DNA from: an uncultured Pseudodesulfovibrio sp.
GTDB taxonomy: Bacteria; Desulfobacterota; Desulfovibrionia; Desulfovibrionales; Desulfovibrionaceae
Length of the DNA: 64,000 nt
Direction: 5' to 3'
Assembly (NCBI RefSeq): GCF_963675635.1
Contig: NZ_OY776488.1
Location: 971,740-1,035,739, forward strand
Positions 10,561 through 12,714 of the stretch are shown piece after piece. The translations under genes and the position numbers were made by a program. The notes beneath the pieces were generated by a model. The model was not told where the DNA came from. It saw only the letters and a list, made by a program, of their open reading frames with translations, and made no database searches. Position 1 is the first letter of the stretch, and each line of letters opens with the position of its first letter.

Positions 10561-11442
10561 TTACAGAATTCCGGCGGTTTTCAACACGCATTTAAGTATG
10601 GGTTTGTTCTCATCCTGCAAAGGAACGATAGGCAGACGGAACTGAGCATCTTTGAAAATACCCATCATGGCAAGGGAGGTTTTAACAGGGATTGGATTAG
10701 TTTCCATAAACATAGCACGATTTACAGGAGCCATTTTCAAGCTCAAGTCGAGAGCGGCTTCGTGGTCCTTGTTAAAAAAAGCTTTGCACATATCACTCAT
10801 CGCTTTGGGCATGATGTTGGAAATGACAGAAATAACGCCTACACCACCCACAGAAAGCAGGGGAAGGACAGTAAAGTCATCGCCGGACAACAGGTTGAAG
10901 TCTTTGCCACACTGTTCAATTACCTGCGCAGCCTGGTTCATGTCACCAGTAGCCTCTTTGACAGCTACAGCTTCGGGGACAGCATCCACGATCATTTTAA
11001 GATGCGCAGGGAGCAGATTAAGACCTGTACGGCCAGGAACATTGTAGATGACAAAAGGCATAGACACTTCTGCCGCAATAGCCTTGAAGTGTTCAACCAG
11101 TCCGCCAGGTGTGGGTTTGTTGTAATAAGGCGTAATTTGCAAGGCAGCATCAGCCCCGGCATCTTTAGCCATTTTGGTTAATGCGATAGCTTCTTTCGTG
11201 GAGTTGGAACCGGCACCAGCTACGACCGGCACACGGCCTTTCGCCTGCTCCACACAAATTTTGATGATCCGTCCTTGCTCTTCGTGAGTCAAAGTAGCGG
11301 CTTCGCCTGTAGTGCCGCATGGCACCAACCCGTCGATTCCCTGCTCAATCTGCCACTCAATGAAATCCCGATATGCGGATTCATCGATTTCCCCGTTTTC
11401 AAAAGGGGTCGAGAGGGCAGTATAAGCTCCTCTAAATTCCAT
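10561..11442 (-). CDS. dapA: 4-hydroxy-tetrahydrodipicolinate synthase
   Basis: DapA condenses pyruvate with aspartate semialdehyde, the first committed step to lysine and diaminopimelate. I chose the ATG at 11442 because AAGGAG then lies 6 bases upstream; an ATG two codons earlier touches the Shine-Dalgarno. The 293 residues show Thr44-Thr45 in 'PCGTTGEAATL', Tyr133 in 'YNVPGRTG' and the Schiff-base Lys162 in 'VAVKEATGDM'. It is the last gene of the minus-strand run that includes the UshA-like selenoprotein gene, 43 bases upstream. Confidence 0.97.
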   Translation of the reverse strand: MEFRGAYTALSTPFENGEIDESAYRDFIEWQIEQGIDGLVPCGTTGEAATLTHEEQGRIIKICVEQAKGRVPVVAGAGSNSTKEAIALTKMAKDAGADAALQITPYYNKPTPGGLVEHFKAIAAEVSMPFVIYNVPGRTGLNLLPAHLKMIVDAVPEAVAVKEATGDMNQAAQVIEQCGKDFNLLSGDDFTVLPLLSVGGVGVISVISNIMPKAMSDMCKAFFNKDHEAALDLSLKMAPVNRAMFMETNPIPVKTSLAMMGIFKDAQFRLPIVPLQDENKPILKCVLKTAGIL

Positions 11443-11485
11443 AGTCATCTCCTTGTCTTTCTATGAAACATACGGACGTTAGCCA

Positions 11486-12346
11486 CTATTGCAATACAGC
11501 GGCAACCTCCGGATTGTCCTTATAGGTATCGTTCAAACCTATTGATGTAGAGTTATAGTTCTTCGAGACATTCCAGGCAAACGAATTTTTACGTTGAGGC
11601 CATTCGAATATCTGTATCTCGCAAACGCTCCGCCCTTTGTCATAAGGACGAATCCATACACAACGGTCGTCCGCAAGAACTCGACCATTTAATCCGGATC
11701 CGCGCCCACTTCCCAACAAAAGATCAGGAACAAATTCAGGATTTTTTATCAAATATTCATTTTCACCAATCCAGCCCCAATCGGACAAGCCGACAATCAG
11801 ACGAACATCATTTTGTAATGATTGGATGTGGCGTCTTACAGATAAGACCATTTCTTCGTTTGGAATATCTTCGCCTTGAGGCAAGGAAGGGAATCGGATA
11901 AATCCGATTCTATCACCGGTACCAAGCGTCAAAACCGTGATTGGTGCGTCTGTGGAGGATTGCTGCCAAGAACCAAGCGCAACTTGAGCCTTCGCCAGAG
12001 CATGGGATTCTTCTTCGGAGATGAAACCTATGTCGTACCTCAGCAGGTTGTACGCTTTGACCAATGAAAGCACACCATCTTGATCGGGAAGTGTACCCTG
12101 AGGACGCATATATTCCCAACCACCGGAAACTAAGAGTCGTGGGGCCGATGTTTTGTGGACATCAAAAAAATACGTGGCCCGCCGGGCCACGCCACCAAGA
12201 GTTTTACCACCTCATGATGGGCATGGACGCACCGTGCCATACGTATTTGCCGAATAGAGAATAGTCAGTACCGCTTCTTTCGCCCACACTTGAGTGCAGG
12301 CGAAGAGAAAGACTGCCAGGCAAAGGCAGTATGTATACCGTCTCAT
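11486..12346 (-). CDS. UshA-like probable selenoprotein with in-frame UGA (Sec) codon
   Basis: Read from the ATG at 12346, the frame codes for a 286-residue secreted protein if the TGA at 12214-12212 is read as selenocysteine. The N-terminus is a signal peptide (hydrophobic, ending near 'CTQVWA'). Then comes 'NTYGTVRPCPSUGGKTLGG' with Cys42 and Sec45 in a CxxU redox-type motif, and 'VARRATYFFD', which continues in frame to the stop at 11486. The fold resembles the 5'-nucleotidase/UshA metallophosphoesterase family ('LIVGLSDWGWIGENEYL'). The usual metal-binding histidine motif (GGHSHT) is replaced by 'LGSGRGSG', so phosphatase activity is unlikely. The start lies 1 base after the IHF/HU stop, suggesting coupling. 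A hairpin fitting a bacterial SECIS starts 20 bases after the UGA. Without recoding, only a 44-residue peptide or a GTG-started 234-residue fragment lacking the signal peptide would be made. Confidence 0.85.
12173..12191 (-). promoter_or_regulatory. Candidate bacterial SECIS hairpin
   Basis: On the minus strand CGTGGCCC-GGC-GGGCCACG forms a perfect 8-bp stem with a G-containing apical loop. It begins 20 bases after the UGA at 12214-12212 and its loop lies about 28 bases after it. Bacterial SECIS elements sit in the coding region just downstream of UGA and have guanine in the apical loop. The three-base loop is tight, and the bulged U of the E. coli element is not evident. Confidence 0.6.
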
Positions 12347-12347
12347 C

Positions 12348-12623
12348 CTACTGGTTGATGAATTCTTTCAATTCTTTACCAGGACGGAAGAAGGGGAGTC
12401 TTTTAGGACTGACCTGAACAACAGTGCCCGTCTTGGGATTGCGCCCTGTGTAACCTTCATAGTCTTTGATCTTAAAACTGCCAAAACCTCTGATTTCGAC
12501 ACGGTCACCGCGACGAAGGGCTTCCTTGACGGAATCGACGAAAGCTCCGACCACCTTGGTGGCCTCGTCTACGTGCATTTTTTTCTGTTCCGACAGAGCC
12601 TTGATCAATTCGCTCTTATTCAT
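12348..12623 (-). CDS. HU/IHF-family DNA-binding protein
   Basis: This 91-residue nucleoid protein is of the HU/IHF fold. The start at 12623 is set by AGGGGG, which fits far better than an ATG six codons upstream. The family signature is 'VEIRGFGSFKIKDYEGYTGRNPKTG', and the beta-arm ends in 'KRLPFFRPGKELKEF'. The RxGRNP arm tip is intact. Whether it acts as HU or as an IHF subunit cannot be decided here. Its stop is 1 base from the start of the selenoprotein gene. A promoter candidate lies at 12715-12744. Confidence 0.93.
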   Translation of the reverse strand: MNKSELIKALSEQKKMHVDEATKVVGAFVDSVKEALRRGDRVEIRGFGSFKIKDYEGYTGRNPKTGTVVQVSPKRLPFFRPGKELKEFINQ

Positions 12624-12714
12624 GGTTTCCCCCTGAAACATTGCTTGAATCGTAGCGCCACAAAAAGGCTCTACGAAGATATGGAAATGAAGTCACTCTC
12701 CAAAATTCTCACTA

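Follow-up and report, generated by a model that had tools for sequence, protein, structure and literature searches.

An in-frame UGA (12214-12212) in a minus-strand gene of the window, i.e. the whole 64,000-nucleotide stretch of DNA from an uncultured Pseudodesulfovibrio sp. that was analysed, is very probably decoded as selenocysteine. For its product, the plausible and most likely reading, to which we give an even chance of being right, is that of a putative periplasmic selenol-thiol redox protein built on a dead metallophosphoesterase scaffold.

Reading frame and family membership

The features of the gene are as follows.

11486..12346, minus strand: selenoprotein gene, UshA-like (seleno)protein family 2 (286 codons plus TAG stop; match to NF049981)
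12281..12346, minus strand: probable signal peptide, residues 1-22 (...VWA/KE), assigned by eye, with similar hydrophobic N-termini in relatives
12221..12223, minus strand: codon of Cys42, the first residue of CxxU, invariant in 33 aligned rows and lost in locus L051
12212..12214, minus strand: in-frame UGA, predicted Sec45, with U or C in 150/150 rows covering the column
12188..12190, minus strand: GTG start of the truncated product in the mechanical ORF list

Between ATG 12346 and TAG 11486, the minus-strand frame has a single interruption, the TGA at 12214-12212, confirming the frame of the preliminary description, which had led from a signal peptide through one TGA into a 241-residue body. 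The product comprises 286 residues, with U45 lying within P-C-P-S-U-G-G and 241 residues following C-terminally; its N-terminus, a hydrophobic run followed by VWA/KE, is signal-peptide-like as judged by eye. ORF calling with table 11 yields only a 234-residue GTG ORF (11486-12190) devoid of signal peptide and motif, the truncation that had been foreseen for ordinary gene calling. The gene thus has what is expected of a bacterial selenoprotein in this respect, an in-frame UGA with coding sequence on either side.

Matches to the interrupted frame were found in 49 of the 60 genomes searched (own genome included), and 49 of the 50 match rows contained exactly one internal TGA, the remaining row being a C-terminal fragment that ends short of the UGA site. 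This recurrence argues that the interrupted frame is not a product of chance. The region upstream of the UGA is conserved as protein: in an alignment of 33 of the 48 rows then found (the divergent L051 lies outside the 33), P41, C42 and P43 were invariant, and N34, T35 and G37 nearly so. Family-like residues therefore stand on both sides of the UGA, as initially proposed, and since N-terminal parts and motif are conserved, the homologues do not start after it.

By profile comparison, the window protein is a member of the already named NCBIfam family NF049981, 'UshA-like (seleno)protein family 2' (316.9 bits against a cut-off of 140, E 9.6e-95), and hence not a discovery. The match spans residues 27-286, i.e. 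the mature protein, and the whole profile (1-262); CxxU is common to the protein and the family, and no difference between them was found. Within the order, NF049981 has matches in 186 of 348 genomes, 180 of them above cut-off. The excerpted text of a 2026 review (PMC13188914) lists the family with the motif CxxU, marked as GenBank annotated, and gives CxU as the motif of NF041198. The older UshA-like selenoprotein with CxU appears in excerpts of PMC2398784 and PMC9312934, the former of which places UshA-like outside the major families with a conserved Cys-based redox motif, though its table gives CxU. The literature search turned up no functional study of UshA-like family 2, so the statement that relatives are known while their function is undescribed holds as far as the literature found.

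NF041198 (UshA-like (seleno)protein, PCGU) is matched weakly by the N-terminal region (residues 7-76, 39.5 bits against a cut-off of 275). The window protein shares this region and the motif position with that family but is not a member: the NF041198 profile has 519 positions and the motif CxU, whereas the window protein has CxxU, no heme and a score below cut-off. Two relatives that do pass the NF041198 cut-off, L182 and L187, have CxC and a C-terminal tetraheme domain. Against Pfam, no family matched the window protein up to E = 1, and 33 members gave scattered weak matches only. In viral_contigs, searched with one pattern, 16 stretches fitted and none encoded a relative.

Probable selenocysteine insertion at the UGA

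The selenocysteine machinery that the preliminary description had suggested looking for is present in the genome: tRNA-Sec (81.8 bits, cut-off 47, anticodon tca; weaker matches read as other tRNAs), selA (609 bits, cut-off 268), selB (383 bits, cut-off 242) and selD (335 bits, cut-off 125). The selD gene (L219; C1:2543451-2544380 of the own genome) is itself interrupted by one TGA, so SelD is probably a selenoprotein too.

Across 154 domain rows, which come from partly redundant loci, the UGA column holds U in 134 and C in 16 and is absent in four fragments; all 150 rows covering it thus have one of the two residues anticipated for homologues. In one genus, 13 genomes pair a Cys copy with a Sec copy in tandem; a second genus has the Cys form as a single copy in 3 genomes, and four further Cys copies lie off-site. 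On a tree of 123 rows (104 Sec, 19 Cys) with Sec sequence as outgroup, from which L205, the L056/L085 fragments and many repeated genomes were left out, three Sec/Cys changes are needed, two of them forced by well-supported branches. Selenocysteine as the ancestral state, replaced by Cys at least twice, fits this pattern. The tandem copies adjoin at the HU site described below (L120-L123 and L127-L135) and offer a natural Cys-versus-Sec comparison. The copies at L085, L056 and L230 are split into several frames in draft genomes, possibly through sequencing error or decay; L056 and L085 appear to be one locus.

In bacteria, a SECIS element is expected as a hairpin just after the UGA with a G in its apical loop. 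Such a hairpin is present in the window, and its third-position pairs are kept in relatives.

12172..12192, minus strand: SECIS-like hairpin of 9 bp with apical loop GGC, the loop beginning 28 nt past the UGA

When the 65-nt segment of the window was shuffled, 13 of 200 shuffles folded equally well. The inner pairs 28:38, 29:37 and 31:35, together with the first loop G, are largely fixed by the Ala-Arg-Arg-Ala code, while pairs 27:39 and 30:36 link third codon positions and hence are free to vary. We compared these two pairs with synonymous resampling (each gene's own codon usage, 300 draws), taking one row per distinct 60-nt segment with the motif PCPx[UC] or PIKA[UC], i.e. 110 of the 154 rows. 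Both free pairs were Watson-Crick in 71 of 95 distinct Sec genes, which share descent and are not 95 independent cases, against 10.8 +/- 3.0 expected (maximum 20). Among Cys genes, the count was 6 of 15 against 2.2 +/- 1.3 (maximum 7), which suggests that Cys copies may keep part of the hairpin. Compensatory pairs were seen in L035 and L158, and a shifted hairpin with a loop starting GGC in L139 and L083; L053 and L055 had no hairpin in the fixed register. The loop G is found in 95/95 Sec genes, but being forced by the Arg codon it is no evidence by itself. Folding energy gave a weaker signal against synonymous controls, with a mean z of -0.87 for Sec and -0.01 for Cys genes and 15 of 95 Sec genes below 0.05; the window gene had z -2.15 (fraction 0.005). 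An Rfam scan of the window returned nothing at the gathering threshold.

Could the gene not encode a selenoprotein at all, with translation starting at GTG 12190, or with the TGA being a sequencing error or the mark of a pseudogene? The GTG ORF does stand in the mechanical ORF list, but the TGA recurs in 49 of the 50 match rows, is exchanged with Cys only across the 150 rows, and stands ahead of a hairpin for which synonymous changes do not account; we give this alternative almost no weight.

A predicted 5'-nucleotidase-like fold with a replaced metal site

An AlphaFold model built from 20 sequences (the broken L085 left out) had a mean pLDDT of 88.3 and a pTM of 0.86, with residues 44-50, the motif loop, below 50. 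Compared with the PDB by Foldseek, 48 of the best 50 rows were named 5'-nucleotidase or CD73 (best E 9.2e-13), and E. coli UshA (1ush) was matched with E 3.7e-10. The fold matches had TM scores by query length of 0.54-0.65 and rmsd values of 5.2-11.4. On the predicted model, the protein would accordingly adopt the metallophosphoesterase fold; the low pLDDT of the motif loop and the high rmsd of the fold matches count against this reading of fold and site.

The ligands of the dinuclear metal centre of E. coli UshA we take to be D41, H43, D84, N116, H217, H252 and Q254. In a multiple alignment comprising UshA of E. coli, the UshA encoded in the genome itself, intermediates and 14 family-2 rows picked for spread, the window protein has N, Y, W, E, D, G and G at these places, i.e. 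7/7 are replaced, and the PCxxU loop sits directly after motif I.

12236..12256, minus strand: residues 31-37, YSANTYG, at the place of UshA metal motif I (TNDxHG), with the ligands D and H replaced, from the alignment with UshA and intermediates

Few ligands are left in the 14 family-2 rows, where D41 is kept in two (L079, L155), D84 in one (L055) and H217 in one (L155); in L041, outside these rows, H stands where UshA has H43. The genome's own UshA has retained the D, H, D, N, H and H positions. Distant Sec/Cys relatives are mixed, L179 and L187 keeping D84, H217 and H252. A direct profile comparison with two UshA sequences was not significant, so the ligand assignments rest on the alignment with intermediates and on the fold match.

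The window protein thus has the predicted fold and a GGxARR segment in common with the N-terminal metallophosphoesterase domain of UshA and the 5'-nucleotidases (COG0737), and differs from UshA by its replaced metal ligands, its gained Sec/Cys motif and the absence of the C-terminal domain (286 residues versus 550). The label 'UshA-like', under which the protein was initially described, consequently stands for the fold and falls for the metal site. That the protein is still a phosphoesterase or nucleotidase, its Sec/Cys motif an extra, would agree with the 5'-nucleotidase fold, the UshA-like annotation and the part of the metal site kept in some distant Sec/Cys relatives, but is very unlikely given the replacement of all seven ligand positions, their scarcity in the family-2 rows and the missing C-terminal domain. 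Of the CxC relatives, L182 (7e-25) and L187 (5e-30) match the SoxB thiosulfohydrolase, both below the SoxB cut-off, whereas for the window protein no match to SoxB appears up to E = 1.

Relatives, gene neighbourhoods and candidate function

The family profile matched 131 of 395 genomes drawn from the phylum, and among the matches listed most have one TGA. We hand-picked 20 distant loci among these listed matches and read them in full. All seven with CxU or CxC (L181, L182, L185-L189) carry four CXXCH motifs C-terminally (tetraheme), while the 13 others have no CXXCH motifs; in this sample, motif spacing and heme part go together. L182 matches cytochrome c554 in Pfam, and among the proteins of the own genome a lone cytochrome matches the C-terminal portion of NF041198. 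Co-occurrence of the lone tetraheme cytochrome with NF049981 (146 genomes with both, 40 with the family only, 39 with the cytochrome only, 123 with neither) is confounded by shared descent and was set aside.

The CxxU pair is not universal. In L051 (L051:1477-2358), UGA and hairpin are kept and the partner Cys is lost (PIKAU instead of PCPxU), suggesting that the selenol may matter more than the Cys-Sec pair; L209 and L213 keep the second Cys only, and the more distant L210 and L211 have neither. In another part of the phylum (L170, L171, L172, L177), a gene for an Fe-S protein with CCG domains, recognised by Pfam for L170 and L172 and by similarity for L171 and L177, lies near the UshA-like gene.

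At its standard site, the gene is flanked by the following two genes.

12348..12641, minus strand: HU-type DNA-binding protein gene, upstream, its stop one base before the selenoprotein ATG; named by eye
10561..11448, minus strand: dapA-like gene, downstream; named by eye

An HU homologue lies upstream in 95 of 107 loci (some genomes counted twice); for dapA the downstream count is 85 of 107, with some stretches ending before they would reach it; in several loci a dapF-like gene (by eye) stands between the selenoprotein gene and dapA. We considered this synteny as a functional clue and read it instead as an old operon.

Extra copies were surveyed in 27 genomes, hand-picked from the 186 matching, mostly for showing more than one match. 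Six off-site second Sec copies (L198-L203) were found in six genomes of three genera, with a heavy-metal P-type ATPase gene directly downstream in 6/6, a TPR gene upstream in 6/6 (one partial) and a CcmF/NrfE-type heme-lyase gene in 5/6, the sixth locus (L201) ending at a contig edge. In five loci from three genera the cluster reads heme lyase (CcmF/NrfE), TPR, UshA-like Sec protein, heavy-metal P-type ATPase, M23 peptidase. Pfam names CcmF for L198 and L203, and the ATPases of these two loci score above the cut-offs for the heavy-metal and cadmium families; at L198 there is a CadR/PbrR-type regulator gene as well. Four of the off-site Sec copies were placed on the tree, where they group as one clade, so their context may reflect a single event. 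The off-site Cys copies (L204-L207) sit in a common cluster, together with pseudopilin-type and GspE/PilB-like genes; these names were assigned at L204 and extended to L205-L207 by similarity.

Downstream of the L199 copy lie rhodanese and MauE genes, which are also found beside UshA-like genes in L174, L209, L213 and L230. Starting from the L213 MauE, an UshA-like gene was within about 1.5 kb in 2 of the best 30 loci (L223 being the query's own locus), and we regard the rhodanese-MauE link as minor. A rhodanese gene stood beside MauE in 30/30 MauE loci looked at in the order.

The off-site clusters bear on two further explanations. Under the first, the CxxU/CxxC site binds or hands over periplasmic Zn, Cd, Hg or Cu and is not engaged in redox catalysis. 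The ATPase gene next to L198-L203 in all six loci and the regulator at L198 speak for such a role, but this context, albeit spread over six genomes and three genera, may go back to one event in one clade, none of these metal genes adjoins the window copy (by eye; the 107-locus survey covered the window's neighbour genes only), and L051 has U without Cys. We regard soft-metal binding as unlikely.

The second explanation, which we consider less probable still, is that the protein serves cytochrome c maturation by keeping apocytochrome CXXCH thiols reduced, in place of a missing CcmH/NrfF thiol component. Consistent with this, heme-lyase and TPR genes precede the off-site Sec copies in five of six loci (the sixth cut by a contig end), only 2 of the order's 348 genomes have CcmH (PF03918) (control: matches in 4 of 14 known genomes), and the CxU/CxC relatives carry heme domains. 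However, according to the excerpted text of PMC3601427, holocytochrome was made in E. coli by a Desulfovibrio Ccm operon that lacks both CcmH and CcmG, so such a part is not required and the proposal is weakened. Moreover, NF049981 is unmatched in 162 of the 348 genomes, of which no more than 2 have CcmH, a reading by eye of the listed ORFs flanking the gene (6-18 kb) showed no ccm gene, and the off-site heme-lyase cases, too, may be one event.

The loss of the metal site, the strict retention of Sec/Cys throughout the examined family rows, the heme domains of relatives and the thiol- or sulfur-related neighbours together point to redox or soft-ligand chemistry and away from hydrolysis. In the selenol-thiol redox reading that we favour, the gene would give rise to an exported 286-residue selenoprotein, its UGA decoded by the cell's SelABD/tRNA-Sec machinery as directed by the hairpin at 12192-12172. 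The predicted fold of the product is that of the N-terminal metallophosphoesterase domain of UshA and other 5'-nucleotidases, with the ligands replaced and a P-C-x-x-U loop directly after motif I; phosphatase function would have been lost in favour of a periplasmic selenol-thiol redox activity. Cys42 and Sec45 would cycle between an Se-S bond and the thiol/selenol pair, their electron partners in the periplasm being multiheme cytochromes or thiol carriers. Judging by the genes that surround its relatives, the candidate substrates are apocytochrome thiols, sulfane sulfur or soft metal bound to thiols. Counting against the redox reading are that the CxxU class has no heme domain, that the standard-site neighbours HU, dapF and dapA say nothing on redox, that PMC2398784 leaves UshA-like out of the major Cys-based redox families, and that the CxxU pair is not universal and the metal site partly kept in several distant Sec/Cys relatives.

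For the family at large, we tentatively propose a possible history in which the UshA/SoxB metallophosphoesterase fold, the scaffold of metal-dependent phosphatases, was stripped of its metal centre and rebuilt as a periplasmic selenol/thiol redox enzyme. The CxU/CxC branch would have become wired to a built-in tetraheme cytochrome (the old metal site may partly persist there), the window's CxxU branch would be free-standing, and copies would have moved into heme-lyase/heavy-metal-export clusters and, at L230, a rhodanese-MauE cluster. Beyond the known family, the analysis adds the metal-site replacement, the position of PCxxU just after motif I, the tetraheme CxU/CxC relatives and the off-site Sec clusters. 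Redox enzymes on thioredoxin-like or molybdopterin scaffolds make up most of the known selenoproteins; if the proposal is true, a selenoenzyme would have arisen by a new route, through a hydrolase fold that gave up its metal centre in favour of selenol chemistry, and the heme-bearing relatives and off-site clusters give concrete, testable hypotheses for a family this widespread in the order.
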